Below, piece after piece: positions 41,086-64,000 of a stretch of 64,000 nucleotides of DNA (its first letter is position 1; each line of letters begins with the position of its first letter). The position numbers were made by a program, and so were the translations under genes. The notes beneath the pieces were generated by a model. It saw only the letters and a program-made list of their open reading frames with translations, did no database searches and was not told where the DNA came from. Location: positions 4,836,001 to 4,900,000 of the forward strand of contig CP109468.1 in NCBI GenBank assembly GCA_036227345.1. Reading direction: 5' to 3'. The stretch is from Streptomyces sp. NBC_01463 (GTDB taxonomy: Bacteria > Actinomycetota > Actinomycetes > Streptomycetales > Streptomycetaceae).

Positions 41086-41727
41086 ATGGCTGAAAAAGAT
41101 ATGAAGAGTCGCAACGTACTGATACTCGTAGGGGGTGAAGTCGTACGCACCGGGCTCGAGGCCCTGTTGCTGCGACTGCCTCGGATCGGCGAGGTCCGTG
41201 CGTGTGGACAGGACACCCTTTGTTCGGAGTTGGCCACCGGCTCGTGGGATGTACTGATCGTGGCCTTCGAGCAATGGAGAATGCTGGGCGCGCACGCGGA
41301 CTCCGGGCCCCTGCCCGTCGTCCTGGTGCTGGGCGACGAGGTACCCGACCAACACGGCGATCTGTACGCCTCGCTGCCGGCCGACGGCTTCATCTCACTG
41401 GCCGATCTGTCCCAGCAGTCCCTGGAGGATGTGATCACCCGGGCGATGGCCGGCGAGATGCCCATGCCGGCCTCACTGGCGCGCCGGCTGCTCGCCGCCA
41501 ACCCGACGCGCATCACCGGCGGCGACGTCCGGACGGTCTCCCTCACCCCGCGGGAGACCGAGACCCTGTCGCTGCTGGCGAACGGGCTGAGCAACAAGCA
41601 GATCGCCCGCGCCATGAGCATTTCCAGCCATGGGGCCAAGCGGCTGGTCGGTTCACTGCTCCTGAAACTGGGGGTCAACAACCGAACCGCCGCTGTCATC
41701 ACGGCTCTCAAGGCCGGGCTCGTCTGA
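41086..41727 (+). CDS. LuxR/NarL-type regulator with atypical receiver domain
   Basis: From ATG 41086 (GGGGGA just upstream) the protein has 213 residues: a receiver-like N-terminal domain and a LuxR helix-turn-helix (LTPRETETLSLLANGLSNKQIARAMSIS ... KRLVGSLLLKLGV). The receiver lacks the acidic pair at its start (LVGGEVVRTGL) and has VAFEQ where the phosphorylated Asp is expected, so it is a pseudo-receiver probably controlled by a ligand or not at all. It is the only regulator seen in the cluster and probably its activator. Its 3' end overlaps the convergent C45 gene by 20 bp. An upstream ATG at 40960 would place the conserved cis element inside the gene and is rejected. Confidence 0.88.
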   Translation: MAEKDMKSRNVLILVGGEVVRTGLEALLLRLPRIGEVRACGQDTLCSELATGSWDVLIVAFEQWRMLGAHADSGPLPVVLVLGDEVPDQHGDLYASLPADGFISLADLSQQSLEDVITRAMAGEMPMPASLARRLLAANPTRITGGDVRTVSLTPRETETLSLLANGLSNKQIARAMSISSHGAKRLVGSLLLKLGVNNRTAAVITALKAGLV

Positions 41728-42829
41728 CGCCGGCCTCCGGGGCCGTCCGGGCATCAGGGGTCGCCCTGAAGCTCTGCGTCCCCGAGGACGGCACATCGGC
41801 CGGGCGGACGTGCAGTTCGCCCTGGGCCGGCAGCATCACCACCGCGGCCACCGTGCGCTCCTTGCGGATGTCGCCGTTTCCCGGGACGTGGAGCGGTGGG
41901 GTGGAGAGCAGCGAGAAGTGATCCTCGGCGCTCGCCGACGGGGGCAGGTCCGCCTGCCCCCGTCGGCACGCCTCCAGCCTGCGCACCGACGACCTACGGG
42001 CGAACGGGTTGATCCGGTCCCCCGGCGCCAGGTCGGGATGCAGGAAGTGGTTCGTGTGCTCCAGCCGGTCGCCCGTCATGGTGCGTATCTCGTCGCCCAG
42101 GACCTCCACCCAGGCGGTCGTCCGCCTGTCGCACAGCATGAACGAGCGTGAGCTCGCCAGCGGAAGTTCCCGAATGATCGCGACGGCGTCCGCGACGGAG
42201 TCGGCGGTGTCCAGCAGGTGGCGTATCGCCAGATACGGCGGGACTCCCGGCCGCCACTCCCCGCCGAGCACCAGGTTCAGGCCCACGGCCAGCCCCCGGT
42301 TGTTGATGCCGAGATAGCCGAGCAGGCCCCCGAAGCTCAGCAGCAGCGACTGCCGGCCCCCGGCACGGGTGATGTCCAGCACGGCGAGCCGGTCGTCCAG
42401 GTTGCCGTTGAGATCCACGGTCTGGGCGAGGACGGGAGCCGCCGCGGCCCCCGTTCCCGTACGGGCGTACGTGGTGCAGTCGCCCGAGGTCCGCACCGTG
42501 CGGTAGCCGAGCAGTTCGCGCCGGATCTGCAGCAGCACCGCCTCCTCGCGGGTGATCCCCGCGCCCTCGGCGAGGCCCGTGATCTCTTCGGCCAGCTCCG
42601 GCAGCGCTGCCGTGATCACCGCGTCGTGAGCGGCGATCACCGGGCGCAGTGCCTCCAGCGTGACCGGGCGGGGCAGCAGGTGCCCGAGGCGGGCCAGCCG
42701 GTCGTCGAGGAACGAGCGCAGCGCGCCCGACAGCGCCCGGCCGTGGCACAGCCCCGCCTCGTACGCGGTGCCCGAGGCGCGCACGAAGGGGATCACCGGT
42801 GCCGACCGCGGTCCGGGCTCCGGGCTCAT
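41708..42829 (-). CDS. Peptidase C45 / acyl-CoA:6-APA acyltransferase-like protein
   Basis: The 373-residue Ntn-hydrolase-type enzyme has the family order: GTAYEAGLCHGRALSG near the N-terminus, GITREEAVLLQIRREL, then SGDCTTYA with the nucleophilic Cys that becomes N-terminal after autocleavage, followed by AQTVDLNGNLDDRLAVLDI and GLLGYLGINNRGLAVGLNL. Such enzymes exchange or hydrolyse acyl groups on amines. ATG 42829 overlaps the GNAT stop (ATGA). In the cluster it could remove or swap a protecting acyl group on nitrogen; this is inference. It is the last gene of the minus-strand operon. Confidence 0.88.
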   Translation of the reverse strand: MSPEPGPRSAPVIPFVRASGTAYEAGLCHGRALSGALRSFLDDRLARLGHLLPRPVTLEALRPVIAAHDAVITAALPELAEEITGLAEGAGITREEAVLLQIRRELLGYRTVRTSGDCTTYARTGTGAAAAPVLAQTVDLNGNLDDRLAVLDITRAGGRQSLLLSFGGLLGYLGINNRGLAVGLNLVLGGEWRPGVPPYLAIRHLLDTADSVADAVAIIRELPLASSRSFMLCDRRTTAWVEVLGDEIRTMTGDRLEHTNHFLHPDLAPGDRINPFARRSSVRRLEACRRGQADLPPSASAEDHFSLLSTPPLHVPGNGDIRKERTVAAVVMLPAQGELHVRPADVPSSGTQSFRATPDARTAPEAGVRRARP

Positions 42830-43458
42830 CGCCTGGCGTCCGCCGAGACCTTGGGACTCTTGGCCAGCTGTTCCTTCACCCAGGGCCACTCGGCGCCCAG
42901 CACGCTGAAGAACACCGCGTCACGGCGGCGGTTGCCGGGCATCGGGTTGAAGCTGCGCAGGATGCCCTCCTCGACGGCGCCGATGTTGCGCAGTCCGCTG
43001 CGTGCCTGGACGTTGAGCGCATCCGTCTTGAACTCGACCCGTTCGGCTTTCAGTTGTTCGAACGCGTGCTGCAACAGCAGGTACTTGGCCCAGCGGTTGA
43101 TGCCCTGCCCGCGGAAGTCGCTGCCGAGCCAGGACCAGCCGATCTCCAGCCGGCCGTCCTGCTGGGCCAGGTTGCCGTAGCTCATGCTCCCCGCGATCCG
43201 CCCGCTCTGCTTGTCCGTGATCACGAAGACGGCGCGGCGTCCGGCCCGGTGGTCTTCCAGCGTGGCGTCGAAGAAGGCGTGGAAGTCCTCGTCATCGTCG
43301 ACGCGGCTGACGAAGTAGCGCCAGATGTGGGGATCCATCGCGATCGCGTGCAGCCCGTCGCGGTCGCCGGCCTCGATCGGCCGCAGCCGTACGTCCTCGT
43401 TCTCCAGCGTCGTCGTCGCGGTGTCCCACCAGCGCCGTACGTGTGTGTCACCGGGCAT
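42826..43458 (-). CDS. GNAT N-acyltransferase (RimJ/RimL type)
   Basis: The 210-residue protein has the GNAT pattern: VRLRPIEAGDRDGLHAIAMDP at the N-terminus, IGWSWLGSDFRGQGINRWAKYLL with the acyl-CoA-binding R/Q-G-x-G loop, and NVQARSGLRNIGAVEEGILR near the end. It transfers an acyl group from CoA (or a carrier) to an amine. It overlaps the ligase gene by 11 bp and C45 by 4 bp. In the triacsin pathway an N-acyltransferase modifies the hydrazino acid, so acylation of a hydrazine nitrogen is plausible here. Confidence 0.87.
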   Translation of the reverse strand: MPGDTHVRRWWDTATTTLENEDVRLRPIEAGDRDGLHAIAMDPHIWRYFVSRVDDDEDFHAFFDATLEDHRAGRRAVFVITDKQSGRIAGSMSYGNLAQQDGRLEIGWSWLGSDFRGQGINRWAKYLLLQHAFEQLKAERVEFKTDALNVQARSGLRNIGAVEEGILRSFNPMPGNRRRDAVFFSVLGAEWPWVKEQLAKSPKVSADARR

Positions 43459-44983
43459 GGATGCCTCCCTGGCTGTCGTCGATCTGGGCCCGCACGGCCT
43501 CTTGGATCTTCTTGCGTTGAGGTTTGAACTGTGAGGTCAGCAGGCCGTTCTCGATACTGAAGCGCTCTTTGGCCACCACGACCCGGCGGATCTTCTCATC
43601 CTTGCCGAAGGCGGCGTTGGACCGCGCGAGCTGGTCGGCGATGGCCGCCTCGTCGGCGGGGTCACCGGCGGGGGAGACCACCGCGATCAGCTGCGTACGG
43701 CTCGGGCACAGGACCACGCACTCCTCGATCGCGGGGCTCTGCTTCATGTAGTCCTCCAGGGGACGGACCATGATCTTCCGCGCGTCCTCCAGCACGATGA
43801 CGTCGTCCGCCCGGCCCTGGATGTACAGGAAGCCGTCCTCGTCGAGATGACCGATGTCACCGGTGCGCACGATGCCCGGTTCGCTGAACACCCGCTCGGA
43901 CGTCCCTTCGGGGGCGTACAGATAGCGGTCGGCCACCGGGTGGACACTGCGCACGCTGATCACGCCGTTCTCGTCGAACAGCACTTCCTTGCCCGGCACC
44001 ACCTGACCGACGCTGCCCAGCCGGTGCGCACCCGGATGGTTCTTGCTGACGATGCAGGTCTCGTTGAGGCCGTAACCCTCGAATATCGGCACACCGATGT
44101 CGGTGAAGAAGCGCAGCACCGTCTCGGCCGCGGGAGCGGAGCCGGTCCACAGGTAGCGGATGCGGTCACCCAGCAGCCGGTCGGCGGCAGCGCGCAGACC
44201 GGCCGTCGTCGGCGGGCCGTCGGCGGCCCTGCGGGCCCGCGACTCGATACGCTGCTGGGCGATCTTGTAGAAGGCTGGCACGCCCATGACCACGGTGGGG
44301 CGGGCTTGGCGCAGCGCCGAGAACGCCGTCTCATAGGCGCTGAGTGTGACGTCGTGACCATGACGCAGCGCGGAGTAGATCCAGTACCGCTGCTGGAGCA
44401 GTGACAGCGGCAGGAACACGAACACGTCGTCGCCGGGGCCGTGCGCGAACATGCTGTGCGCCGCGCGCAGGGAGCTGTCGATGCTCCCGGCGGTGGCGGC
44501 CAGACCCTTGGGTTCACCGGTGCTGCCCGACGTGAACTTGATGGTGGTCGACTCGTCGGAGGCGTACTCCACGGGATCGGGTGCCGCGTCCGGCTCCGTC
44601 GACGCCACGAGCTTGGACACCTCGTCGATCGGCAGGACACCGTCGCCGTGCCCGTCCCGGTCGGTGAAGAGCAGCTTCAGCCCGTAGCGCGCGAGGAGGG
44701 CAGGTCCGGGGTCGAACTTCCCCGGCTCCAGTCCGGCGGTCACCGCCTTCAGCCGCAGCGCCGCGAGGTCGAGCAGCACCCACTCAGGGCAGTTGGCCGA
44801 CAGGATGCCGATCCGGTCGCCGGCGCGCACACCGAGCCGCGCCAGGGCCACCGCGAGCCGGCCGGACTGCTCGTACAGCTCCGTCAGGCCGAGGGAGCGG
44901 GAGTCGCCGGGGCCGATGAAACGGAGGCGATGGCCCGGTGCCGGCGGATGCCCGAGGACATGGGCGAGTACGGAGTCGCTCAT
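43448..44983 (-). CDS. AMP-forming acyl ligase (ANL superfamily)
   Basis: The 511-residue enzyme has the adenylation core: FTSGSTGEPKGLA (P-loop), GYGLNET (A5 region), RTGDIGHLDEDGFLYIQGR (A7/A8) and the C-terminal NGLLTSQFKPQRKKI with the catalytic lysine. It activates a carboxylic acid as the acyl-AMP for transfer to CoA or a carrier protein. ATG 44983 overlaps the cupin-MetRS stop (ATGA). The hydrazino acid released by the upstream enzymes, loaded on the carrier at 49673, is the most economical substrate guess. Confidence 0.9.
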   Translation of the reverse strand: MSDSVLAHVLGHPPAPGHRLRFIGPGDSRSLGLTELYEQSGRLAVALARLGVRAGDRIGILSANCPEWVLLDLAALRLKAVTAGLEPGKFDPGPALLARYGLKLLFTDRDGHGDGVLPIDEVSKLVASTEPDAAPDPVEYASDESTTIKFTSGSTGEPKGLAATAGSIDSSLRAAHSMFAHGPGDDVFVFLPLSLLQQRYWIYSALRHGHDVTLSAYETAFSALRQARPTVVMGVPAFYKIAQQRIESRARRAADGPPTTAGLRAAADRLLGDRIRYLWTGSAPAAETVLRFFTDIGVPIFEGYGLNETCIVSKNHPGAHRLGSVGQVVPGKEVLFDENGVISVRSVHPVADRYLYAPEGTSERVFSEPGIVRTGDIGHLDEDGFLYIQGRADDVIVLEDARKIMVRPLEDYMKQSPAIEECVVLCPSRTQLIAVVSPAGDPADEAAIADQLARSNAAFGKDEKIRRVVVAKERFSIENGLLTSQFKPQRKKIQEAVRAQIDDSQGGIHAR

Positions 44984-47004
44984 CGTTCGCCCCGGTCCGT
45001 GGTGAAGAAGACCTGGCCGCTCAGGTCGACGACGCTGCCCGCGGGCAGCAGGGTCGAGGTCGCGGGCCACTCACTGGCCGGCGGCATGCCCAGGGCCGTG
45101 GCCAGCCTCTCCGCGAAACGCGGCATGACCGGCGTCGCGCACATCGCGAGAAGCCGTGCCGCGCACAGCTCCAGGGCGATCGTGGTGCGGTTCTCGTCGG
45201 ACCACTTCTCGCTCTGTGCGGTCCTCGCCTCCACCCGGGAGAACCGGATGGCGTCCGCGACGATTCCGCTCAGCTCGTCGGCGGCCTGGTTGAGCGAGAA
45301 GGCGTCGGGCCCGAGCGCCGCGGTGAGCGCGGCGAGCCGGCCGTTGAGCCGGGCGAGGAAGGCGGTCTGCTCCCGCGTCCAGATCCCGGCGTCCGGGGCC
45401 CGCCCGGCGTGGTCCTTCTCGATCCGGCCGCCCAGGTCCTGCAGCCACGCCTGCCAGCCGCCGGTCAACTCCTCGTCCAGGACGGCCCCGTAGGCAGCGT
45501 GCCGGAAGTCCGTGCGCCGCCCCTCCGGGCGGGTGCGGGACAGGAAGAAGCGGACGGCGTCCACGCTGTCCGGACCGAGGATCTCCTTCCCCCACACCGC
45601 GTGGCGACGGCTGGTGGAGAACTTCTCGCCCTCCAGGAGGTAGAACTCGTTGACGTGATAGTCCACGTCGGGCGTCCACCCGGGATGGGCCAGCTTGTAC
45701 AGGACCGGGTACAGCATCGAGTGGTAGAAGCTGTTGTCGTACCCGAAGAAGTGGACGATCTTCCAGTCCGCTCCGGGGGCGCCGGCCCGCCAGTCGCGAC
45801 CGTTGGCACGCCCGATCGCCTCGATCCCGTACAGGAAGCCGTACGACATCTCCGGCCAGACCCAGATGACCTGTTCCCCCTCGGCGTCCGACGAGGCCGG
45901 GGCAACGCCCCAGGACGAGGGGTGGGTGAGGGCGATGTCGAGGCGGTCGCGGCCCAGGAGCCGGTCGGTCAGTTCCCGCAGCCGGGCGGGCACGCGCCCC
46001 AGGCGGTGATGCTCGGCCAGGTCGGTGCCGAACTCGTGCAGCGGCAGGGAGTAGCGGGTGACCGAGCCCTGTTCCGGAACCAGGTCCGAGCGCCCCGAGC
46101 GGGCGCCGCCCAGCTCGGCGCAGTTGTTGGGCTCACCGCACTCCTCGCAGATGTTGCCGCCCGCCGGTGCCGCGCACGACGGGCAGGAGCCGTGCACGTC
46201 GACCTCGTACAGGTACTCGCCCGACCCGGCGTCGAACAACGCCGGGCCCGGCCTCGGCTCCACTCTGCCGGAGGCCACCACGCGGTCGAAGAACGCCCGC
46301 AGTCCCTCGGCGTACTCGGCGTTCCCCGCCGTCGTCGTGTACTGGTCGGGGTGGATGTCCATCAGCGCCAGCGTCGCCGCGATCTCCGCGCCGTAATGGG
46401 CCGCGGTCTCGGCCGAGGTGCGTCCCTCGCGCCGTGCCGCCTCGGTCACATAGCTCTGGTGGTCGTCGCTGCCGGTGATGTGCCAGGCGTCCGCGCCGTT
46501 CATCCGCTGGAAGCGCACATAGGCGTCGGCCCCCAGGTAGGGGCCCGACAGATGCCCCAGGTGCAGATCGCCGTTGGGTGTCGGAGGGGTCGAGAAGACG
46601 AACCGCGGACGGTGGCCGAGCCGTGCCCCGCCGCCGTCCGCGGCCGCGGTGGAGGCCCGCCGGGCGTCGCGCCAGTAGAAGGTGGCGAACACCAGGTCGT
46701 CGCTGCCGTGGTTCTCGAGCACATGGGTGTCGAAGGGTTCGAAGAGCGCCACGACGCCCGGCGCGGCCGGGTGCCGCACCTGTCCGTTCACGACGATCTC
46801 GCCGCGTCCGGAGACGATCACGAAGACCTCGTTCTCGTCGTGCTGGTGGGCCATGGACGACGCTCCCGGCACGACCCGGCCCCAGCCGGTGTGGACGCCG
46901 ACGTCACCGGAGCCGCCGGGCCCGGGGCTGCCGAGGTCCAGGTCGCTCATGTCGATGCCCAGCGCCGCCCGAAGGGCCGCGGGGTCGTAGGCACTGATCT
47001 TCAC
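44980..47004 (-). CDS. Cupin-MetRS fusion hydrazine synthetase
   Basis: The 674-residue protein joins a cupin (about residues 30-110; MAHQHDENEVFVIVSGRGEI with H53, H55, E59, and THVLEN with H94) to a methionyl-tRNA-synthetase-like part from residue 133. The latter keeps the HIGH motif as HLGH (148-151), a four-cysteine zinc knuckle (C274, C277, C286, C289) and KFSTS (461-465) in place of KMSKS, but not a usable anticodon tail. Such fusions (Spb40, Tri28) condense an N-hydroxylated lysine with an activated amino acid and rearrange it to an N-N bond. GTG 47004 overlaps the oxidase stop (GTGA), with AAGGAG 6 nt upstream. Confidence 0.93.
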   Translation of the reverse strand: MKISAYDPAALRAALGIDMSDLDLGSPGPGGSGDVGVHTGWGRVVPGASSMAHQHDENEVFVIVSGRGEIVVNGQVRHPAAPGVVALFEPFDTHVLENHGSDDLVFATFYWRDARRASTAAADGGGARLGHRPRFVFSTPPTPNGDLHLGHLSGPYLGADAYVRFQRMNGADAWHITGSDDHQSYVTEAARREGRTSAETAAHYGAEIAATLALMDIHPDQYTTTAGNAEYAEGLRAFFDRVVASGRVEPRPGPALFDAGSGEYLYEVDVHGSCPSCAAPAGGNICEECGEPNNCAELGGARSGRSDLVPEQGSVTRYSLPLHEFGTDLAEHHRLGRVPARLRELTDRLLGRDRLDIALTHPSSWGVAPASSDAEGEQVIWVWPEMSYGFLYGIEAIGRANGRDWRAGAPGADWKIVHFFGYDNSFYHSMLYPVLYKLAHPGWTPDVDYHVNEFYLLEGEKFSTSRRHAVWGKEILGPDSVDAVRFFLSRTRPEGRRTDFRHAAYGAVLDEELTGGWQAWLQDLGGRIEKDHAGRAPDAGIWTREQTAFLARLNGRLAALTAALGPDAFSLNQAADELSGIVADAIRFSRVEARTAQSEKWSDENRTTIALELCAARLLAMCATPVMPRFAERLATALGMPPASEWPATSTLLPAGSVVDLSGQVFFTTDRGER

Positions 47005-48086
47005 AGGGTGCTCCTTCGGTACGCGGGACCACTCGGCAGGCCGAGCAGATCGGCCGTCTCCGCGGCTGTCGCCGGGGCGAGCCGGTAGCCGGATCCATTG
47101 GCGGCGCCCGCGAACACGACGCGGTCGTACGGGTCGAGCGAGCGGATCAGGGGTTCGGCCGTGGTGCTGTACGCATCGCAGAAGACGCGGCCCGAGACAC
47201 AGCTCCCCGCCAGGTCCGGCGCGTAGCGGCCGAGGACCTCACGGGCCTCGGCCAGGTCCCGGGGAAGCAGTCCGGCCCGCAGCTCGTCCGGGTCGACGTC
47301 CCACTCCCGGCATGTGTAGCTGAACAGCCAGTGGCCGGCGTACCCCAACGGCAGCAGGAAGGCGTCCTCGTCGTGGAAGGAGACCACCGGGGCGTCCGGC
47401 TCCGGCTGCCGCTCGACGTGCAGGGCGACGACCTTCTTCACCCGGGCGCCGAGCGGCTCGACCAGGCCGCCCCACGCGGGATCGGCCAGCCACGGCCCGG
47501 GAGCCAGGACGACCCGTCCCGCGGTCACGGTGTCACCGGAGCCCAGCCGGAGGGCCACGGACGACGTCCCGGGCTCCACGGCCGTCACCCGCACCCCTTC
47601 GAGGAAGCGGACACCGGGGCGCAGCTCCCGGGCCAGCAGCCGCGTGAGGCCCGGCACGTCCGCGTACTGGCAGCCCGCCACCGACCACACCCCGCAGCCC
47701 GCCGGCGGCAGCACCGGGCTGCCGGCCACGACCAGCTCCTTCGGGTCCGCGGCCGCCGGAGCGGCGTCGGGAAGATGCACTTCGCGCAGCCCGGGTTCGG
47801 ACTCCAGCGCCGCCACCACGTACATGTCGCGGTCGTGGATGGGCACGTCGGACCGCTGTTCCCGCAGGGTCCGGTAGAAGTCCTGGCTGTAGGCCGTCAT
47901 GCGCCGTACCCGCTCGGTCGCCCCTCGGGGGAAGTGCAGCCCGGCCGAGCGGCGGCTCGCACCGGAGGCCACGGCGTCGCGCTCCACGACGAGGACGGAG
48001 AGGCCCGGATCGCGCCGGACCACCTCCCGGGCGATCATGACTCCGGCGATGCCGGCACCCACGATCGCGATGTCCGCTGTCTCCAA
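47001..48086 (-). CDS. FAD-dependent amine oxidoreductase (glycine oxidase/DAO type)
   Basis: The 361-residue protein has a Rossmann start (IAIVGAGIAGVMIAREV), SGASRRSAGLHFPRG after it, and the DAO-family C-terminus (VVFAGAANGSGYRLAPATA). Homologues in hydrazine pathways oxidise the secondary amine of the N6-(carboxymethylamino)lysine-type intermediate and release the hydrazino acid and a semialdehyde. TTG 48086 is chosen since AGGAGG lies 10 nt upstream; the gap to the monooxygenase stop is 5 bp. The next gene overlaps by GTGA. Confidence 0.9.
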   Translation of the reverse strand: METADIAIVGAGIAGVMIAREVVRRDPGLSVLVVERDAVASGASRRSAGLHFPRGATERVRRMTAYSQDFYRTLREQRSDVPIHDRDMYVVAALESEPGLREVHLPDAAPAAADPKELVVAGSPVLPPAGCGVWSVAGCQYADVPGLTRLLARELRPGVRFLEGVRVTAVEPGTSSVALRLGSGDTVTAGRVVLAPGPWLADPAWGGLVEPLGARVKKVVALHVERQPEPDAPVVSFHDEDAFLLPLGYAGHWLFSYTCREWDVDPDELRAGLLPRDLAEAREVLGRYAPDLAGSCVSGRVFCDAYSTTAEPLIRSLDPYDRVVFAGAANGSGYRLAPATAAETADLLGLPSGPAYRRSTL

Positions 48087-48091
48087 GGTGT

Positions 48092-49672: not shown

Positions 49673-49966
49673 ATGGACGAAACGGCCTCGCACACTGTCG
49701 CCAACGGTTCACAGGGCACGCACGGCGTCGCCGACGTGGTGATCACGGCACTGGCGGACATGCTCAAGCGGCCGGCGGAGACCCTCTCCCCGGACGCGCG
49801 TCTCGTCCAGGACCTGGACTTCGATTCGACGAGTTTCCTGGAGCTCCTCCTGCGCCTGGAGGACGACCTCGACACGGAGTTCGACCCCGACACGTTCGGC
49901 GCCGGCGGCTTCGAGACCGTCGCCAGCCTGATCGGTTACGTCGGCGAACAGAGCGGACAACGATGA
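49673..49966 (+). CDS. Acyl carrier protein (first)
   Basis: The 97-residue protein has the carrier core LSPDARLVQDLDFDSTSFLELLLRLE, with Ser52 as the phosphopantetheine site (the usual DSL reads DST). ATG 49673 follows a GGAAAGGGGGG stretch. Its stop overlaps the next gene (ATGA). As the first gene opposite the hydrazine operon it is the likely acceptor for the ligase product. Confidence 0.9.
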   Translation: MDETASHTVANGSQGTHGVADVVITALADMLKRPAETLSPDARLVQDLDFDSTSFLELLLRLEDDLDTEFDPDTFGAGGFETVASLIGYVGEQSGQR

Positions 49967-54417: not shown

Positions 54418-54663
54418 ATGCCGGAAATCGTGGACGACCGCATCGCCGAAGTACTGCGGCGGGTCGCCGAGCTGCCCGACTCGTTCGAGATCAAGGGCTC
54501 CCAGGAGCTGAAGGCCGACCTCGCGATCGACTCACTGAAGATGATCGACGTGATCATCCAGGTGGAGGGGGAACTCGGCATCGAGATGGGTGACGACTTC
54601 TCCCGTGAACTGCTCACCGTCACGGACCTGCAGCACCACGCCGAACGGCTGGCCGCCGGCTGA
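54418..54663 (+). CDS. Acyl carrier protein (second)
   Basis: The 81-residue protein has LKADLAIDSLKMIDVIIQVEGELGIEM with Ser39 as the attachment site; it resembles fatty-acid/polyketide type II carriers. ATG 54418 follows GGAGGGG. It is followed by the KS pair, so it probably carries the growing chain. Confidence 0.92.
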   Translation: MPEIVDDRIAEVLRRVAELPDSFEIKGSQELKADLAIDSLKMIDVIIQVEGELGIEMGDDFSRELLTVTDLQHHAERLAAG

Positions 54664-56702: not shown

Positions 56703-57553
56703 CAGCCGGGCCGGGAGAGGCGGCCGCACCCGTCGTGACAGCCGCACCCGGGGCGGCGGCCGGGTCCGCTGACACGGCCGGGCCGCTGCGGCTGACCAGG
56801 GACGGTCCGCTGGCCGTGCTGACGATGGACAGCCCGCCGCTGAATCTGTTCGACGCGGCCATGTGGAGTGCCTGGGACGACGCCGTGCGGCGGCTCGCAG
56901 CCGATCCGCCGCGAGCCCTGCTCGTCCGGGCGGAGGGGCGCGTCGTCAGCGCCGGCGTCGATGTGGACGTCTTCGCCCGGATGGATCCGGCCGAGGCCGA
57001 GGAGTTCTGGCGCCAACGGATGGGTATCACCCAGGAGCTCGAGCGGCTGCCCTGTCCCACGGTGTTCGCCGCACACTCGCTGACGCTCACCGCCGCCTTC
57101 GAACTGGCCCTGGCCTGCGACCTCGTGGTCGCCACCGAAGGGGCCCGGTTCGGACTCGTCGAGCAGCGGGTGGGTTTCACCCCGGCGATGGGCGGCACCC
57201 AGCGCCTGGCGCAGCGTGCCGGACCCTCCAGGGCCCGCGAACTCGTCATGACGGGTGAGCTGTACCGCGGGTCGACGCTGGCCCAGTGGGGCGTGGTGAA
57301 CGCCCTGTTCGGGCAGTCGACCTTCCACGCCGACGCCCATGCGTACGCGCTGCGTCTGGCCGAGGGTCCCACGCGGGCGCACGCGGCGACCAAGGCGGTG
57401 GTGCGCTCCTTCCTGGACGGCGGGGTGCCGGCGGCGGACAGGATGCTGCCGGCGCTGGCGGCGAAGGTCACCCGAACCGAGGACCACCGCCGTGCCGTCA
57501 CCGCGTTCCTCACGGACGGCCCCCAGCACGAGACCCCCTACCGCGGACGCTGA
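56699..57553 (+). CDS. Enoyl-CoA hydratase/isomerase (crotonase)
   Basis: The 284-residue protein has a ~28-residue Ala/Pro-rich N-terminal tail, then LTMDSPPLNLFDAAM, the oxyanion loop VVSAGVDVDVF, and AAFELALACDLVVATEGARFGLVEQRVGFTPAMGG with both catalytic Glu positions occupied. It could hydrate, dehydrate or isomerise the chain made by the KAS enzymes. GTG 56699 overlaps the KAS II stop. It is the last gene of this operon before a terminator. Confidence 0.9.
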   Translation: MTAGPGEAAAPVVTAAPGAAAGSADTAGPLRLTRDGPLAVLTMDSPPLNLFDAAMWSAWDDAVRRLAADPPRALLVRAEGRVVSAGVDVDVFARMDPAEAEEFWRQRMGITQELERLPCPTVFAAHSLTLTAAFELALACDLVVATEGARFGLVEQRVGFTPAMGGTQRLAQRAGPSRARELVMTGELYRGSTLAQWGVVNALFGQSTFHADAHAYALRLAEGPTRAHAATKAVVRSFLDGGVPAADRMLPALAAKVTRTEDHRRAVTAFLTDGPQHETPYRGR

Positions 57554-57896: not shown

Positions 57897-58865
57897 GTGT
57901 CCGAAAGTCCACAGCTCACCGATCCCAGCTGCTACCACTCGTCGTTCGCGGCCGTGCTGAGGTCCGTGGACCCCACGGCGGACCCGGTTGCCGCGCTCGG
58001 CAGGAATGCCGCCACCTCCGCGCGCCTCGACGACGAGGGACTGCTGAAGTTCGCAGACCCGGTCGAGCCGCTCGGGGAGTCCCTCCGCAGAAGCGGCTAC
58101 TCGCTGGTGCGTCACCCCGTCGGCGCGGCGGAGGACTGGCGGGAGGCCGAGCACGCCCTGGACGAGGGCCGCACGATCGCGGTGGCCGCCGACTACTTCC
58201 ACCTTCCCCACTACTGGCCCGGACAGGGCCGCATCCATGCACTGCACGTGGTCGCGCTGCACAGCCCGGACCGCGACGAGGGCACGGTGGGGATCAGGGA
58301 CCTCGGAGACGTCATCCACTTCGACGGCGAGATCCCGGCCACCGACCTCCGTGCGGCGATGCACGGTAGTGACCTGGGCCAGGCGTGGTACGAGCTGCGT
58401 GCGGCCGACCCGTTCACCTACGAACCATCCCAGCTGGCTTGGCAGTTGACCGGCCCGGGGAGCGAGTGGCTCAGCGGCACCGAGCTGGTCGGCGCCCTGC
58501 GGGACGGGCTCGACGACTATCTGGAACGGGTCGCCTCCCGTGGGCGCGCGAGCACCGCCGGCCAGTCCGGGTGGGGCCTGGGACAGCGGCTGCCGCTCGG
58601 ACTGTGGTGGTACCACCACACGCTGCGCTGGTTCGCCCGTCACCTCCGGGCGGAAACGGACTCGCCGGTCCCGTACGAGCACGTGGAGCTTGCCGCGGAC
58701 GACGTACTGGCGATCCGGAACCTGATCATGAGGCTGGGCGCGATGGGCGCCGCCAATCCGCGCGCCGGAACCTTCCGCAAGCAGTTGGAATCGCGGCTGG
58801 CTGATGCCACGGCGAATCTGGAGGCGGCCGGCGCGCGGACCGGCAGGTCGGGAGCCACCCCATGA
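57897..58865 (+). CDS. BtrH-like carrier-dependent N-acyltransferase
   Basis: The 322-residue protein has a papain-like N-terminal domain: Cys12 in DPSCYHSSF, His in GRIHALHVVALH (His114/117) and Asp in VGIRDLGD (about 135). This order matches BtrH of butirosin biosynthesis, which moves an aminoacyl side chain from a carrier protein to an amine. The C-terminal ~150 residues are helical. GTG 57897 follows GTGGGAGAAGA. Aminoacyl-carrier made three genes downstream is its natural donor; this is inference. Confidence 0.75.
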   Translation: MSESPQLTDPSCYHSSFAAVLRSVDPTADPVAALGRNAATSARLDDEGLLKFADPVEPLGESLRRSGYSLVRHPVGAAEDWREAEHALDEGRTIAVAADYFHLPHYWPGQGRIHALHVVALHSPDRDEGTVGIRDLGDVIHFDGEIPATDLRAAMHGSDLGQAWYELRAADPFTYEPSQLAWQLTGPGSEWLSGTELVGALRDGLDDYLERVASRGRASTAGQSGWGLGQRLPLGLWWYHHTLRWFARHLRAETDSPVPYEHVELAADDVLAIRNLIMRLGAMGAANPRAGTFRKQLESRLADATANLEAAGARTGRSGATP

Positions 58866-59440
58866 ACACACCGCTCCCCCTTCCGCCCCTCGTGGACGGC
58901 GTCGCCCTCGATCTCGCACCGCACCGCAACAACGCCGGGTGCCTCGCCCGTTCGCTGATCGTGGCCGAGGGGCTCGACGGCTTCGGCCGCGCCTTCTCCA
59001 CAAGCGGACTCGATGCCGCTGCCACCGCCCTCGGGCTCCCCGCCCAGTGGGGCGAGGGTGAACCGGACAACGTGGCGTGCGAAGGCCAGACCGTGGACGT
59101 CGGCGCACTCGCGCGGGTGACCGCGGTGCGGGTCGCGGGCGTGGCGTCCGGCGGAACCACCGCCGGGGTCTTCCGGCTGCACGGCGACGACGGGACCGTC
59201 ACTCCGGTCCGGTTAAGGCTGGCCGACTTCCTGTCCCGGCAGCCGGCCGAGGACAGCACCCTGTTCGCCGAGGCCGACTTCCTCTACGACATCGGCGGCC
59301 GGACCCAGCGCAAGGCACAGCCCCGGATCTGGCTGGCCACCGTACGACTTTCCGAACCGGCGCCCTGTACCCGGCTGGAGCTCCCGGTCAACCCCGATCT
59401 CCACCTCTTCGGCATCTGGCTGACTCCCGACGGCAGTTGA
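58862..59440 (+). CDS. Unknown beta-rich protein with a TTA codon
   Basis: The 192-residue protein is coupled to the BtrH-like gene (ATGA). It has alternating strands (LARVTAVRVAGVASGGTTAGVFRLHG ... RIWLATVRLSEPAPCTRLELP) reminiscent of galactose-binding or NPCBM-type sandwiches, without catalytic motifs. Codon 118 (59213-59215) is TTA, the rare Leu codon read by the bldA tRNA, so its synthesis should depend on development. Its function is unknown. Confidence 0.75.
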   Translation: MNTPLPLPPLVDGVALDLAPHRNNAGCLARSLIVAEGLDGFGRAFSTSGLDAAATALGLPAQWGEGEPDNVACEGQTVDVGALARVTAVRVAGVASGGTTAGVFRLHGDDGTVTPVRLRLADFLSRQPAEDSTLFAEADFLYDIGGRTQRKAQPRIWLATVRLSEPAPCTRLELPVNPDLHLFGIWLTPDGS

Positions 59441-59507: not shown

Positions 59508-60278
59508 ATGCCCACAGCAGGTACAGAGCTGTCCATCAACGGACACGCAAGGTACGACCTGGCAGAGCACTTCGGCATCACCGAGAACGACGACAACTAC
59601 CGGACCCTGCGCGCGGCGTACGACGAACTGCCCGCCGACCCCTACGCGCCGGGCTCCGGACGCTACCGCCGCTACGCGCGCGGACTGTTCCTGCCCTGGT
59701 CCAGGGAGTTCAGCTGGATGCCGGCCACCGAGTCCCAGCGCAGCAACGGGATGCACGGTTACTACCAGGGCGACCACAACCCCGAGTACCCGGGAGTCGT
59801 ACGCGACCTGGCCGCCATCTCCGACGAGTCGTGCGCCAACCAACTGTTGCTCGACATGGTCCAGTTCGACTTCGAGCAGACCCGCTGGAGCGAGGACGAC
59901 CGGGTCTGGCCGCTGTTCGTCGGCGTGCACCTGATCAAGCTGCACATCGAGGACGACGGCAGGGAGGCCGTCTCCTCGCCCAACGAGCTCCACCAGGACG
60001 GCGAGCCCTATGTCTTCGCCCATCTGATCTACAAGCACAACGCCGAGGGCGGGAACAACGTCATCGCCACGCCCGCCTACCGGGGCAAGCAGCCGGAGGA
60101 CGTGCCCCCGGCGGACCGGCTCGCGGAGTTCCAGATGAACCGGCCACTGGAGACCTACGCCGTGACCGACCATCTCGTCAGCCACTACGTGGGCCCCATC
60201 CGCAAGGGGCCCGACGCCGGGCCCGGTGAGCGCGCCATCGTGCTCACCGACTGGGTCCCCATGCGCCACCGCATCTGA
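59508..60278 (+). CDS. 2OG-Fe(II) amino-acid dioxygenase (PF10014-like)
   Basis: The 256-residue protein shows NELHQDGEPYVFAHLIYKHN with the H162-x-D164 metal motif, GGNNVIATP, a distal His in TDHLVSHYVGPI (222 or 226) and GERAIVLTDW with Arg242 for 2-oxoglutarate. This pattern fits the family of L-isoleucine dioxygenase, which hydroxylates free aliphatic amino acids. ATG 59508 follows AGGGGGA. It may hydroxylate the amino acid that is loaded by the ligase next door or an intermediate of the hydrazine branch. Confidence 0.82.
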   Translation: MPTAGTELSINGHARYDLAEHFGITENDDNYRTLRAAYDELPADPYAPGSGRYRRYARGLFLPWSREFSWMPATESQRSNGMHGYYQGDHNPEYPGVVRDLAAISDESCANQLLLDMVQFDFEQTRWSEDDRVWPLFVGVHLIKLHIEDDGREAVSSPNELHQDGEPYVFAHLIYKHNAEGGNNVIATPAYRGKQPEDVPPADRLAEFQMNRPLETYAVTDHLVSHYVGPIRKGPDAGPGERAIVLTDWVPMRHRI

Positions 60279-60314: not shown

Positions 60315-61463
60315 GTGTTGGTGCGCTATCACCACAAACGTGCTGTCACGGCAGCGTCCGCCGATGAACTGCGGAAGGCGCTCGCCTTCTACTACGGCTC
60401 CGACGCCGTCCTGGTGCGCCAAGAGGACGAGGGCGTCCTGGTCGAGGTCGGCGGCAGTCTCACCGAGCTCGAACTGAGCGACATCGTCCGGCACTTCCTG
60501 CGCGGGCACCGGGACGTACCCGTCCGTGTGATCGCGGAGCACGGACCCGCCGCCGGGGCCGCGCGGCCGGTAAGTCTGCCACCGGCCGACGACCGGATCG
60601 CGATCAGCGGGGGCACCTACCTCCAGGGACCGGAGTGGAACGACGCCCTGGAACGGACCCGGCAGCTCGTGTACGAACGGGTCGCCGCCGACTTCGACGC
60701 GCCACGGCTCACCGGTTCGGCGCAGATCCCGCGCGAGGTCCTGCTCCGCGCGGGCTACTACCGGAAGTTCCCCAACCTGGTGAACGCGGTGTCCCGGATC
60801 AGACCGGACTACTGGGACGGGGTCACCGTCTCCCGGCTGCGGCCCGGACAGAGCGAGGCGCTCGCCTCGTTCTACGAACCGTCGGACCTCGTCCTCAACC
60901 CGGTGACCTGCTACCACGTCTACTCCAACGCGCTGGAACTGCGCCGGCGTCACGGCACGGACCTGTTCGCCATTGAGGGACCGGTCTTCCGGCACGAGGC
61001 GCACAACCACAACGCGACGCGGCTCGCGGAGTTCCGGATGTTCGAACTCGTGCGCCTCGGGCGGAGCGAGGAGGTGCGGGCGGAGTTCGACCGGCTGCTC
61101 GACTCCTTCTGCCGCTTCTTCGTGTCTCTCGGTCTGCCGCACCGGGTGGTCAGCGCTTCCGACGCCTTCTTCGGTGACGACCCCTCGTTGTCCAGGGACG
61201 CGCAGCTGCTCAACGGCAGCAAGTTCGAGGTACGGGTGCCCCTGGCCGAGGGCGAGCTGTCGGTGGCCAGCGTCAACGCCCACGGCGAAGTCTTCGCGGA
61301 CGCCTTCGGGCTGCGCGAGGCGGCGGGGATCGAGGCCACCTGCTGTGCCGGCATCGGTCTCGACCGGCTGGCCTACGCCCTGCTCGCGCACGGTCTGCTG
61401 CCGACAGAGGCGGCTCCCGCGGACCCGGACCTGATCACCGCCGACACCCCGACTGAGATGTGA
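60315..61463 (+). CDS. Class II tRNA-synthetase-like amino acid:carrier-protein ligase
   Basis: The 382-residue protein resembles the catalytic core of atypical SerRS: TCYHVYSN (C199), FRHEAHNHNATRLAEFRMFE (motif 2, R226-E228 and E244) and ATCCAGIGLDRLAYAL (C343/344, motif 3). The Cys-Glu-Cys zinc set and absence of a tRNA-binding domain match amino acid:[carrier protein] ligases, which load mainly glycine or alanine. An ~85-residue N-terminal extension is unusual. GTG 60315 is chosen; in-frame TTG/GTG follow at once. The GTGA overlap with a carrier gene supports the assignment. Confidence 0.87.
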   Translation: MLVRYHHKRAVTAASADELRKALAFYYGSDAVLVRQEDEGVLVEVGGSLTELELSDIVRHFLRGHRDVPVRVIAEHGPAAGAARPVSLPPADDRIAISGGTYLQGPEWNDALERTRQLVYERVAADFDAPRLTGSAQIPREVLLRAGYYRKFPNLVNAVSRIRPDYWDGVTVSRLRPGQSEALASFYEPSDLVLNPVTCYHVYSNALELRRRHGTDLFAIEGPVFRHEAHNHNATRLAEFRMFELVRLGRSEEVRAEFDRLLDSFCRFFVSLGLPHRVVSASDAFFGDDPSLSRDAQLLNGSKFEVRVPLAEGELSVASVNAHGEVFADAFGLREAAGIEATCCAGIGLDRLAYALLAHGLLPTEAAPADPDLITADTPTEM

Positions 61464-61720
61464 GTGCCATGGAAGACATCACCGTGGTCGTGAACGACCT
61501 TCTCGGACAGCTCGCGGCGGCCCGCGACGTCCCGGCCGACTCGGAACCCGACCGGATCGTCGTCAGCTCACTCGACCAGATGCGCTTCCTGGTCGGCCTG
61601 GAGGAGCGGCTCGACACGATGCTGGATGTCGGCGACACCCTGCCGTTCGACCTGACCGGACGAGAGGCGCTGGTGAAGAGCGTGCTGACCCTTCTGCAGG
61701 AATCCGGACTGGCAGAGTGA
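61460..61720 (+). CDS. Aminoacyl carrier protein (third)
   Basis: The 86-residue protein has RIVVSSLDQMRFLVGLEERLDTML with Ser37 as the likely attachment site; the Asp that normally precedes it is Ser. It is coupled by GTGA to the ligase gene and should accept the aminoacyl group. ATG 61469 is an alternative start. Confidence 0.87.
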   Translation: MSAMEDITVVVNDLLGQLAAARDVPADSEPDRIVVSSLDQMRFLVGLEERLDTMLDVGDTLPFDLTGREALVKSVLTLLQESGLAE

Positions 61721-61754: not shown

Positions 61755-63158
61755 ATGGCCGGACCGCGGGTTCGCCTGGACCTGGAGACGACCCGGGAGG
61801 TCGTCCGGGTCTCCCTGCCGCTGATGCTGGGCATGGCCGGCAACCTGATCATGATGCTCGTCGACCGGATCTGCCTGGCCCGGTACTCGGAGGACACCCT
61901 GAAGGCCTCGGGGCCGGCGGTCTTCACGGCGGGCACCCTGATCATGGTGATCACCGGGACGGTGGGCATCACCCGGTCGTACGTGGCCCAGGCGCACGGC
62001 CGCAAGGACCGGGACGCCACCATGGAGGAGGGTGCCAACGGGCTTCTGCTGGCGCTGATCCTCGCCATCGTGCTCCTCGCCACCACCCCGCTGGTGGCCC
62101 GGGTGCCCGACCTGAGCGGACAGCCGGCCCACATCAGGGCCCTGGAGTCGCAGTTCCTGACGCTGTCCACCAGCTACGGCGCCGTGATGGCCCTGAACAT
62201 GGCCATGTCCTCGTACTTCAACGGCACGGCCCGCACCAGGGTCCCCATGACCGTGGGCCTCATCGGTCAAGCCGTCGGCATCGTCGTGATCCCCGGCCTC
62301 GTGTTCGGACGCTTCGGGCTGCCGGAGATGGGGATGCGCGGTTCGGCCATCGGCACGCTCGTCGCGGTCGGCGTCATGTTCGCCGGATACGCGATCTGCC
62401 TGCCCAAGGGCTTCTTCGTGAGCTTCCTCCGCCTGCTCGGGCAGGGGGTGCGCGCGATCACCGAGAAGCTGTGGCTGCGGCTGCGCAGGGGTGCCCCGTC
62501 GGGTGGCGGGGCCGGACTCGACGAGCTCGGCAACACGTCCTTCGTCTGGCTGGCCGGTGTCCTCGGCCCGGTGGCGCTGGCCGCCAACAACGTCGCCGTC
62601 TCGCTGAACTACGTGGCCGTCATCCCGCCCATCGGCTTGGCCCTGGGCTGCAACGTGCTCTGCGGCAACGCGCTCGGCGCGGGGCGCCATGACCGCGTGC
62701 CGCACATCGTGCGGGTCACCCTGGGTGTCGCCGGCGTGTATGTCGGGCTGATCGTGTTCCTCCAGATCGTCACGCCGAAGCTGCTCCTGTACCCCTTCGG
62801 CCTCGACCAGGTGGAAGCGGCGGCCGTCGGCAGCGCCGTCGACACGTCCCGCATGCTGTGGACCTACGCGATCGCGTTCATGTTCTCCATCGTCGCCACC
62901 GCGGTCCTGGACTGCTTCGGGCTCGCCAGGTTCGGGTTCCTGGCCCGCGTGGTGGTGATGTGGGGACTCAGTGTCCCCACCATCTGTCTGATCACTCTGA
63001 CCCATCGCGGCGAGACGGGACTGCTCCCGCTCGTCTGGGCGGTCTACTCGGCCTTCGAGGCCGTGATCGCCGCCGTGTGCTTCTGGCGTATCCGCCGGGC
63101 CGTCGCGGGCCGGGAGAACGCACTCGTGAAAGTGGCGGCGGTTCCGGAAGCCGTCTGA
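61755..63158 (+). CDS. MATE-family efflux transporter
   Basis: The 467-residue membrane protein has about 12 helices in two halves: VRVSLPLMLGMAGNLIMMLVDRICLARYS opens the first and GNTSFVWLAGVLGPVALAANNVAVSLNYVAVIPPIGLALG opens the second (described by residues 18-46 and about 258-300). It would export the product or a toxic hydrazine intermediate using Na+ or H+. ATG 61755 with GAGGAG 5 nt upstream is preferred to the adjacent TTG. Confidence 0.9.
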   Translation: MAGPRVRLDLETTREVVRVSLPLMLGMAGNLIMMLVDRICLARYSEDTLKASGPAVFTAGTLIMVITGTVGITRSYVAQAHGRKDRDATMEEGANGLLLALILAIVLLATTPLVARVPDLSGQPAHIRALESQFLTLSTSYGAVMALNMAMSSYFNGTARTRVPMTVGLIGQAVGIVVIPGLVFGRFGLPEMGMRGSAIGTLVAVGVMFAGYAICLPKGFFVSFLRLLGQGVRAITEKLWLRLRRGAPSGGGAGLDELGNTSFVWLAGVLGPVALAANNVAVSLNYVAVIPPIGLALGCNVLCGNALGAGRHDRVPHIVRVTLGVAGVYVGLIVFLQIVTPKLLLYPFGLDQVEAAAVGSAVDTSRMLWTYAIAFMFSIVATAVLDCFGLARFGFLARVVVMWGLSVPTICLITLTHRGETGLLPLVWAVYSAFEAVIAAVCFWRIRRAVAGRENALVKVAAVPEAV

Positions 63159-63202
63159 CACCGCACCGCCGACCCCTGTTGCTGAGGAGAGTTGAGACGC
63201 CT

Positions 63203-64000
63203 GTGAATGTGCTGATCCTCGGGCACGAGGAAGACTGCCGCGACTACATCGACTACGCGGCCGAGCGTGGCTTCGATGTGCGGTTCCTCGCTCCGCCACG
63301 ACTGGCCGGAATCGACCGGGCCGACTGGCAGCGCACCGTCGCCGACAGTGCCCGGGACACCCTGGACCTGTCCGATGTCGACGATGTCGTCTCCTTCCAC
63401 GACGGATACCAGATCCAGCTGGAGCTCCTGCGTACGGAACTCGGCCTGCCCGCACGCGACATCGACACCCTGCTGAGCCTGACGGACAAGACCCTGTTCA
63501 AGGCGCACCCCGCGATCCGCGACCACATCACCCGGCACATCGAGCTCTCGCCCTCGCTGCGGGCACCCGAGGCACTGGCCCTGGTGACCGAAGCCGGCCT
63601 GCGCTTCCCGCTGGTGCTCAAGCCGTCCAACGGCTTCTACAGCGCGGGTGTCGTCAAGGTGGACGACCCCGCGGGATTCGCCAAGGCGCTCATCCAGACC
63701 AAGCGCGTCTGCACGGTCCTGAAGGAGAGCACGGGCAAGAGCGTGCTGCTCGCCGAGGAGTACCTCGACGGCAAGGAGTACGCGGTCGACGGCATGATCA
63801 GCGGTGGCCGGGTGCTGCCCCTGCAACTGCACCGCAAGCTGCCCGATCTCGTCGGACCGCTGTTCCACGAAATCGCCTACCTCACCGAGCCGTTCGACGA
63901 GGAGAAGGGCGCGAGGTTCAAGGCCCTGCTCGACACGGTGGTGCCCGCCCTCGGCCTGGACGAGTCGCCCTTCCACGCCGAGTTCAGGTTCGACGGCGAG
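63203..64000 (+). CDS. ATP-grasp ligase (5' part; continues beyond window)
   Basis: At least 266 residues from GTG 63203. VLILGHEEDCRDYIDYAAERG is the N-terminal domain start; LSLTDKTLFKAHP, LRFPLVLKPSNGFYSAGVVKV and VLLAEEYLDGKEYAVDGMISG are ATP-grasp landmarks (ATP-binding Lys and the acidic hinge). Magnesium-site residues lie beyond the edge. The family forms amide bonds from acyl phosphates, so it may join the hydrazine unit or an amino acid to the product. Confidence 0.9.
   Translation, partial: MNVLILGHEEDCRDYIDYAAERGFDVRFLAPPRLAGIDRADWQRTVADSARDTLDLSDVDDVVSFHDGYQIQLELLRTELGLPARDIDTLLSLTDKTLFKAHPAIRDHITRHIELSPSLRAPEALALVTEAGLRFPLVLKPSNGFYSAGVVKVDDPAGFAKALIQTKRVCTVLKESTGKSVLLAEEYLDGKEYAVDGMISGGRVLPLQLHRKLPDLVGPLFHEIAYLTEPFDEEKGARFKALLDTVVPALGLDESPFHAEFRFDGE

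Follow-up and report, generated by a model that had tools for sequence, protein, structure and literature searches.

What can be expected of a gene cluster in which enzymes for nitrogen–nitrogen (N–N) bond formation are encoded among discrete carriers, ketosynthases and ligases? The question arises from Streptomyces sp. NBC_01463, of which we analysed a window of 64,000 bases (bases 4836001–4900000 of a 9.0-Mb contig) and read a further 36 kb downstream. Genes on both stretches were called with a codon model. The cluster comprises 28 genes, g37 to g64, from window position 41101 to 68212; its last 4.2 kb lie beyond the window and were taken from the host genome. From sequence comparisons we consider it moderately probable that the cluster makes an undescribed N–N natural product, that two older gene sets were joined in it, and that a hydrazonoacetyl group is passed by g54 and g55 to an amine of the product of the second set. 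We call the two sets block A (13 genes, g37–g47 and g54–g55, assigned by their relatives) and block B (13 genes, g50–g53 and g56–g64). The sequences themselves show the gene content and gene order, the homologies, residues that match known metal and catalytic sites, and the co-occurrence of each block's genes elsewhere; from these we infer the substrates, the acceptor, the sequence of reactions and the retention of the unit as a hydrazone.

A first-pass annotation had put a hydrazine-forming cluster at 41086..64000. A cluster does lie there, but it does not end at 64000: the sequence past the window carries it to 68212 and adds an aminotransferase, a thioesterase, a second phosphopantetheinyl transferase (PPTase) and another BtrH-like protein, this one with a weaker match. 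Within the window, the dehydrogenase-like g45, the formyltransferase-like g49, g51, which resembles a chain length factor (CLF), the enoyl-CoA hydratase (ECH) g53, g55 and a MATE exporter had gone unnamed. The β-ketoacyl synthase-type enzymes (g48, g52), dehydrogenase (g46), PPTase (g47), ligase (g57), dioxygenase (g56) and ATP-grasp enzyme (g60) listed in that annotation were all recovered on the plus strand. Of its three carriers, g44 and g50 were recognized by Pfam; g58, which Pfam did not match, is called a carrier from its size, place and SSL motif. Many adjacent genes in g37–g64 overlap or nearly touch. A Pfam scan of all 28 proteins gave matches for 24, the others being g45, g51, g55 and g58; NCBIfam was also run. 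No nonribosomal peptide synthetase (NRPS) or modular polyketide synthase (PKS) was found by Pfam among the 28 proteins. The description as a set of stand-alone enzymes holds for the entire cluster.

A predicted operon for hydrazinoacetic acid

Six genes on the minus strand form a leftward operon. Its first gene, g43 (48092..49420; PF13434 Lys_Orn_oxgnase, 1.6e-91), encodes a lysine N6-monooxygenase (NMO). It is followed by g42 (47001..48086; PF01266, 1.1e-34), a DAO-type flavin oxidase predicted to release hydrazinoacetate, which starts with TTG at 48086 or GTG at 48296, and by g41 (44980..47004; PF09334 tRNA-synt_1g, 4e-55; Cupin_2, 1.8e-10), a fusion of a cupin and a methionyl-tRNA synthetase (MetRS) and the predicted N–N bond-forming hydrazine synthetase. 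Then come the AMP-ligase g40 (43448..44983; PF00501, 2.1e-44), the GNAT protein g39 (42826..43458; PF13302, 1.7e-21) and the C45-type peptidase g38 (41708..42796; NF040521, 3.3e-65, above cut-off). The coupling of NMO, DAO oxidase and cupin–MetRS in one operon, seen on the first pass, was borne out by Pfam matches on the minus strand in genes that overlap or touch. Genes g44 to g64 form a rightward set on the plus strand, divergent from the operon.

The g41 protein contains the motifs HLGH and KFSTS. Its cupin residues His53, His55, Glu59 and His94 have the same spacing, within one residue and as judged by spacing rather than structural alignment, as Asp63, His65, Glu69 and His103 of RHS1, the zinc ligands that were mutated in the study PMC8664883. 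Matches to g41 at 1e-60 occur in 74 of 392 genomes of the genus, and many of the weaker ones start after the cupin part. As close N–N loci we took 23 non-self loci (22 genomes) with 59–68% identity to g41, leaving out matches at 55% or less. The stretches searched were ∼39–40 kb in 20 cases, 37.0 kb in G251, 32.9 kb in G149 and 19.9 kb in one G147 locus; because of this length, absences in the three shorter stretches are less sure. When homologues were counted at E up to 1e-8 over more than half of the query, NMO and DAO oxidase were present in all 23 loci and g38, g39 (63–72% identity) and g40 (55–63%) as well in 21. Thus, all six genes occur together in 21 of the 23 loci, at 49–72% identity.

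This conserved set, together with the counterparts of the zinc ligands in the cupin, supports by homology the hydrazine-forming function proposed on the first pass. Very probably, g43, g41 and g42 make hydrazinoacetic acid (HAA) from lysine and glycine. At the level of gene content, with NMO, DAO oxidase and cupin–MetRS fusion in one operon and the zinc ligands matched by spacing, no difference was found from the described HAA pathways (Spb38-40, Tri26-28, AzsL-N and DobG/E/F), the named proteins being compared by family and not by alignment. In the azaserine and dob pathways, a GNAT enzyme succinylates HAA, a ligase loads it and a C45 peptidase removes the succinyl group (PMC10445470; PMC13061610). 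The homologues of GNAT, AMP-ligase and C45 peptidase in loci of the triacsin, azaserine and dob kind are 52–72% identical to those of the window. By analogy, g39 would succinylate HAA, g40 would load succinyl-hydrazinoacetate on the carrier g44, and g38 would remove the succinyl group.

Carrier, putative split dehydrogenase and BtrH-like pair

The carrier g44 (49673..49966, plus strand, like all genes described from here on; PF00550, 1.2e-10), predicted to hold the N–N acyl unit, has counterparts of 52–57% identity in G003 (one of the 23 close loci), on a plasmid of strain NBC_00868 and in G612. In the same three loci there are homologues of 51–55% of g46 (50673..51869; PF00441/PF02770), an acyl-CoA-dehydrogenase-type protein predicted to oxidize the hydrazine to a hydrazone on g44. 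Between them lies g45 (49963..50676), a truncated acyl-CoA-dehydrogenase-like protein and putative partner of g46, which was recognized by profile and model comparison. A search of PDB with the g45 profile listed 13 matches (E up to 1), all 13 of them acyl-CoA dehydrogenases, at E 0.0095 to 0.74. The AlphaFold2 model of g45 (pLDDT 77.8) gave 26 Foldseek matches at E up to 0.001; by title these were acyl-CoA-dehydrogenase-type flavoproteins, with ColB1 and Fic32-33 among the best, at a query TM of only 0.40–0.56. Sequence and model suggest to us that g45 and g46 together form a split dehydrogenase. At least six homologous proteins of g45 exist, its own included, and GKU 895, S. bobili and Amycolatopsis are among those listed; the search was incomplete, since it missed the homologue in G003. 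In this search and in that for g54, ∼8000 candidates each were scored, and the counts are lower bounds. The PPTase g47 (51866..52639; PF01648, 2.9e-11) follows g46. By analogy with the described carrier-bound cassettes, g44 is quite likely to carry a hydrazone (hydrazonoacetyl) group.

The BtrH-like transferase of the first pass is g54 (57897..58865); a match to PF14399 is there (6.5e-5), but under the family cut-off. Proteins of this kind are rare. At 1e-20, two of 384 genomes of the genus had one (NBC_01463 itself and G003); at 1e-30, so did three of 394 genomes of the family (NBC_01463, G612 and G425); and among 72,556 plasmid records there were two. At least 13 homologous proteins were detected, and 7 of the 13 listed carry PF14399. 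The next gene, g55 (58862..59440), is assigned as the partner of g54 by position: a g55-like gene lies beside the g54-like gene in all seven loci compared (the window, GKU 895, G003, NBC_00868, NBC_00715, G612 and G425). The pair goes with block A. We see an even chance that the BtrH-type g54 transfers the carrier-bound acyl group.

Block A in other loci

The layout PPTase–dehydrogenase–g45–carrier, divergent from NMO–DAO oxidase–cupin-MetRS–ligase–GNAT–C45 peptidase, is identical in the NBC_00868 plasmid (NZ_CP108815.1; 39–70% identity) and in G003. Both loci thus have g38–g47 in the same arrangement, plus g54–g55, which in NBC_00868 lie ∼13 kb away from the rest of the set. The homologues in G003 are 57% (g44), 41% (g45), 53% (g46), 45% (g47), 47% (g54) and 50% (g55) identical. 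The surroundings differ from those in the window: instead of block B there are glycogen-synthase-like, SIS and carbamoyltransferase genes, and in G003 also glutamate mutase genes. Because of the glycogen-synthase-like and SIS neighbours, the acyl acceptor in these two clusters is plausibly a sugar amine. The LuxR-family regulator g37 (41101..41727; Pfam GerE, 1.2e-13) was included in block A; it has a homologue of 56% near block A genes in NBC_00868 and in G612, and one of 80% in GKU 895.

In G612, one stretch (L102, 11521–18691) holds the carrier, the dehydrogenase pair, the PPTase and the BtrH–g55 set beside sugar genes, an ATP-grasp gene and a decarboxylase-like gene.

A relative of the entire cluster

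A contig of strain GKU 895 (MWJO01000072, 43,788 bases) matched all 28 genes in the same order, at 59–89% identity. Since 28 of 28 genes are conserved in order, the cluster is not a product of chance, and chance open reading frames were rejected as an explanation. The stretch conserved with GKU 895 also sets the borders of the cluster at g37 and g64; the flanks of the GKU 895 cluster look different from those in the window. One additional gene, of the DDAH family (PF19420), is present before g64 in GKU 895. By eye, transposase-like open reading frames were seen just upstream of the orthologous cluster (L110, 2574–5806).

Block B in sister loci

Block B was found without block A. A scan of a genome collection with g57 yielded 10 loci: GKU 895 and nine sister loci, whose hosts include S. 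alanosinicus, S. tropicalis, S. populi and NRRL S-118. Common to all nine are g50–g53 and g56–g59; g60-like genes and g62-like sequence occur in eight each and g63-like genes in seven. In the eight sister genomes searched (L036, a short contig, was left out), g64 was present in all and g61 in five. The stretches of all nine loci lack a match to g38–g39 or g41–g43; g40 matches of 24–27% in seven of them lie in or at their NRPS. At 1e-50, seven of the eight sister genomes had no cupin–MetRS match, and the eighth had one of 34%, on a different contig from its g64 homologue. At 1e-40, g57 occurs in 6 of 384 genus genomes, the own genome included; of the five others only G221 is among those with cupin–MetRS matches, at 34%. 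These five are not independent of the sister loci, because at least four (G221, G119, G266 and G293) agree in contig numbers with G705, G707, G702 and G700. Among plasmids, g57 had a single weak match, of 34.5% across 65% of its length.

The first half of block B holds the genes predicted to add a short ketide. The acyl carrier protein (ACP) g50 (54418..54663; PF00550, 1.7e-4) is 57–64% identical to its counterparts in all nine sister loci and would serve a pair of ketosynthase (KS) and CLF-like protein. The KS, g52 (55515..56702; PF00109/PF02801; Cys, His and His seen by eye), is nearest to those of highly reducing type II PKSs; its best PDB match is the ishigamide KS (6kxd_A, 1.8e-49), and AmcF is among its NCBIfam matches, under the cut-off. 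We tentatively assign g51 (54703..55518), in which no active-site Cys was seen, as its CLF/KS-beta-like partner. The three top Foldseek matches of g51 were chain B of the ishigamide KS/CLF, at E 0.027–0.076, with none at 0.001; a profile search of PDB returned nothing but laccase and hydroxyisourate hydrolase, at E 0.0036 and worse, which we took as chance, and so no support for a CLF. In contrast to the ishigamide system, the 28 proteins include no ketoreductase domain and a single ECH-type protein, g53 (56699..57553; PF00378, 1.4e-32). All three sister loci scanned (L038, L042 and L043) have a FabG-like reductase, and five others seem to have one. In cispentacin biosynthesis (PMC10698177), a KS and a partner that lacks known motifs carry out a single C2 elongation, after which a class III aminotransferase acts on the carrier. 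By analogy, this is a precedent for a single elongation by g52/g51 followed by amination.

The second half is built around g57 (60315..61463), predicted to be an amino acid:carrier protein ligase with a core like that of seryl-tRNA synthetase (3mey, 3.5e-24; NF005479, 1.1e-34, under cut-off). It shares the catalytic core of the amino acid:[carrier protein] ligase 3mey by sequence but matches it only from residue 98 on. The zinc ligands of 3mey, which we take to be Cys, Glu and Cys, have aligned counterparts in g57. The small protein g58 (61469..61720; 83 aa, SSL motif by eye) follows g57 in all nine sister loci and is its presumed aminoacyl carrier. Upstream lies g56 (59508..60278; PF10014, 1.1e-26; HilB model, 3e-13, under cut-off), a 2-oxoglutarate–Fe dioxygenase and predicted amino acid hydroxylase. 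Downstream are the MATE exporter g59 (61755..63158; PF01554, 1.3e-29) and the ATP-grasp ligase g60 (63203..64000 in the window, ending at 64417 outside it; PF13535, 1.5e-23). The cluster is completed, between g60 and 68212, by the class III aminotransferase g61 (PF00202, 4.7e-60), the thioesterase g62 (PF00975, 6.4e-26), the PPTase g63 (PF01648, 1.3e-11) and the BtrH-like g64 (PF14399, 0.0088, under cut-off), in this order.

The counterpart of g62 in seven sister loci is the C-terminal part of a larger protein (1282–1319 aa), which in L042 and L043, both scanned, is an NRPS of condensation, adenylation, thiolation and thioesterase domains. From this correspondence, the window cluster may have lost the first three domains and kept the thioesterase; the reverse is possible. 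The motifs for adenylation-domain specificity in the sister NRPSs were inspected by eye and gave no confident code. No publication describing a cluster for a block B product was found in the open-licence literature.

Dimethylargininase-like genes were seen at L041:3799–4656 (NF045659, 3.9e-135, above cut-off) and L035:16840–17679 (PF19420), and by resemblance in L042 and L044. Three sister loci and the GKU 895 cluster have such a gene, and none was called in the window cluster. These genes hint at an arginine-derived building block of block B.

Comparison with described N–N clusters

The published pathways continue from HAA with different parts. As references for the azaserine (azs) kind we used the proteins of G251, one of the 23 close loci, and not those of the published azaserine strain; families were joined at ≥ 40% identity. 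By Pfam, the G251 locus has a saccharopine dehydrogenase, an acyl-CoA dehydrogenase, an HDO-type protein and a β-ketoacyl-ACP synthase III (KASIII); its AzsQ-like carrier (93 aa, without Pfam match) was named from its size and its position, flanked by ligase and GNAT. Of the 23 loci, 20 have AzsQ-like proteins, 18 have AzsF-like and 18 AzsD-like proteins, 13 have a member of a large NRPS-sized family (it includes the protein of 1096–1121 aa after the cupin–MetRS gene in G251 and G149) and 12 have HDO-type proteins. The window has no member of any of these families. Thus, unlike the GNAT, ligase and peptidase, its carrier, dehydrogenase and KASIII-like protein are not orthologous to the proteins of the azs-like locus, and it adds the second dehydrogenase-like protein g45 and the BtrH-like transferase with its partner g55.

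Other parts of the described clusters were not found among the 28 proteins: the Cy-A-CP NRPS, the carrier fused to cupin–MetRS, the HDO and the P450 of azaserine, and, by Pfam, the domains of the type I PKS Dob2 and the diiron oxidase Dob3 of dob. An azaserine, triacsin or dob cluster was rejected, as parts are missing or non-orthologous. In the 24 proteins that Pfam matched there is no FDO, HDO or P450 domain, and g55 and g58 are unassigned; since no domain of the kinds that the papers link to diazo or nitramine groups was found, a hydrazone or a ring-closed product is likelier. The impression on the first pass that the combination was unfamiliar agrees with these results: the set differs from those for azaserine, dob, N-nitroglycine and triacsin as the consulted parts of the reports give them (triacsin by way of the azaserine paper), and no publication describing it was found in the open-licence literature. 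A mining study collected 129 hydrazone-type clusters and described five architectures beyond azaserine, triacsin and s56-p1 (PMC13061610). Its Pfam filter would admit our cluster, which may therefore already be in the list if the genome was in the set.

Proposed pathway and its alternatives

In the pathway that we favour, HAA made by g43, g41 and g42 would be succinylated by g39 and loaded by g40 on g44. The dehydrogenase pair g46/g45 would oxidize the g44-bound unit to the hydrazone, with g38 freeing it of the succinyl group, and g54 with its partner g55 would hand the resulting hydrazonoacetyl group to an amine. Block B would build the acceptor with discrete enzymes: g57 would load an amino acid on g58, g56 would hydroxylate it, g52/g51 with g50 and g53 would add a short ketide, g61 would aminate and g60 make an amide, whereupon g62 would release the product and g59 export it.

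Several points weigh against this pathway. We can only guess at the acceptor and at the amino acid that g57 loads. Both g54 and g64 match BtrH (PF14399) under the Pfam cut-off, g48 could equally be the transferase, and the g51 model is poor (pLDDT 55.5). In comparison with the azs-like proteins, g44 has no BLAST match to the AzsQ-like protein (nor do g50 and g58), g46 shares no more than 27% identity with the AzsF-like dehydrogenase, and g48 gave only short chance pieces with the AzsD-like protein (best E 0.42); because these three are not Azs-like, the hydrazone step rests on analogy. Nor do the transfer genes always occur with N–N genes. G612 has homologues of the carrier, g45, g46, g47, g54 and g55, yet its 39.8-kb stretch contains no match to g38–g39 or g41–g43 and only one of 26% to g40. 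Likewise, NBC_00715 and G425, the latter with a partial g46-like match, have g54–g55-like genes without N–N genes in stretches of 37–40 kb. As the G612 stretch has no N–N genes, the transfer part can serve another acyl group, and the hydrazine link is not obligatory; in G612 the same module probably transfers a different acyl unit. Finally, GKU 895 is a draft contig with g47 in two pieces and a best g55 piece covering 42%, which may reflect sequencing error or decay.

The main rival places the N–N unit at the start of a ketide and not as an amide cap. Here, g48 would move the hydrazonoacetyl group to the ACP g50, and g52/g51 would condense it with malonate to 4-hydrazono-3-oxobutanoyl-ACP, which g61 would aminate or which would close to a pyridazinone, much as in the dob pathway. 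g48 (52629..53672) is a KASIII-like acyltransferase of the DpsC/CerJ/ChlB3 group (best PDB match DpsC, 3.4e-51, followed by ChlB3 and CerJ) with a Cys at the acyl site by PDB alignment. Among the clusters compared, the window and GKU 895 have it and the sister block B loci lack it; genes for an ACP, a KS and a CLF-like protein are nearby; and PMC13061610 reports the same condensation for Dob2. However, the KS/CLF-like pair, ACP and ECH also occur in all nine sister loci, in stretches without N–N genes, and their native starter is therefore something else. The route also leaves no role for g54/g55. Moreover, the presence of g48 is a weak clue, because its homologues are fairly common: at 1e-60, 8 of 101 genomes of the genus, counting that of NBC_01463, have one of 40–53% identity, and NBC_01463 has two further copies. 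Among the proteins of 280–380 aa in the 23 close N–N loci, none matched g48 at E ≤ 1e-3. We regard a ketide starter as unlikely, if a serious competitor to transfer by g54/g55.

That two unrelated pathways, one for a hydrazone amide from block A and one for a separate block B product, merely lie side by side is improbable. Each block does occur elsewhere without the other. In the window, however, the blocks are interleaved (A as g37–g47 and g54–g55, B as g50–g53 and g56–g64), many neighbouring genes overlap or nearly touch, and GKU 895 has kept all 28 in order; with the interleaving conserved, two independent clusters were rejected. A cluster for azaserine, N-nitroglycine or triacsin in disguise, giving a diazo, nitramine or N-hydroxytriazene product, is the least credible of all: it would share HAA synthesis and succinylation, as PMC10445470 and PMC13274452 describe them, but the Cy-A-CP NRPS, the cupin–MetRS-fused carrier, the HDO/FDO/P450 domains and a saccharopine dehydrogenase are missing, as are AzsQ-, AzsF- and AzsD-like proteins (Tri proteins were not part of the sequence comparison).

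g49 and the surroundings of the cluster

Along with g48, g49 belongs to neither block; the two are not at that place in block A loci and not in block B loci. The g49 protein (53669..54367; PF00551, 8.7e-19) has a formyltransferase fold and is nearest, among solved structures, to the N domain of 10-formyltetrahydrofolate dehydrogenase (4qpd, 4.4e-18), with His and Asp aligned. This N domain passes a formyl group to a carrier-like domain. The family is common (3570 proteins at 1e-3), and relatives of 78% and 81% occur in 2 of 100 other genomes, both in loci with KS-like genes; for these reasons, the placing of g49 says little. It is pure speculation, from ring counting, that a C1 unit supplied by g49 could close the product to a 1,2,4-triazinone ring. 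In two Streptomyces genomes we noted a conserved locus (L124:891–12532 and L125:900–12576) with two KS-like proteins (∼2000 and 595 aa), an AMP-ligase-like protein and a g49-like formyltransferase.

Right after g64, outside the window, a 73-base direct repeat (98.6%) is present at 68317–68389 and 75247–75319 (L002:8317–8389 and 15247–15319), the right copy covering part of a tRNA-Pro(CGG) gene. The repeats frame ∼6.9 kb of lower G+C (61–67%) with PIN/DUF433-like genes, an arrangement that suggests an integrated element; no integrase was recognized in the small number of genes inspected there.

Implications

N–N natural products form a small and reactive group, and hydrazone chemistry on carriers is known from only a few pathways. 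In NBC_01463, the same N–N start appears tied to another carrier, dehydrogenase and transfer enzyme, and joined to a pathway that in other Streptomyces occurs on its own. We advance tentatively the idea of a portable acyl-transfer module, consisting of g44, the split g45/g46 and the BtrH-type g54 with its constant partner g55, that would pass a hydrazonoacetyl thioester to sugar amines elsewhere and here to an amino acid made by discrete KS/CLF and aminoacyl:carrier ligase enzymes. Such a module would yield a hydrazonoacetamide, and for this class no described cluster was found. Hydrazonoacyl transfer by BtrH-type enzymes, the role of the split dehydrogenase and the product of block B thereby become testable, and the sister block B clusters are natural controls without the N–N part.

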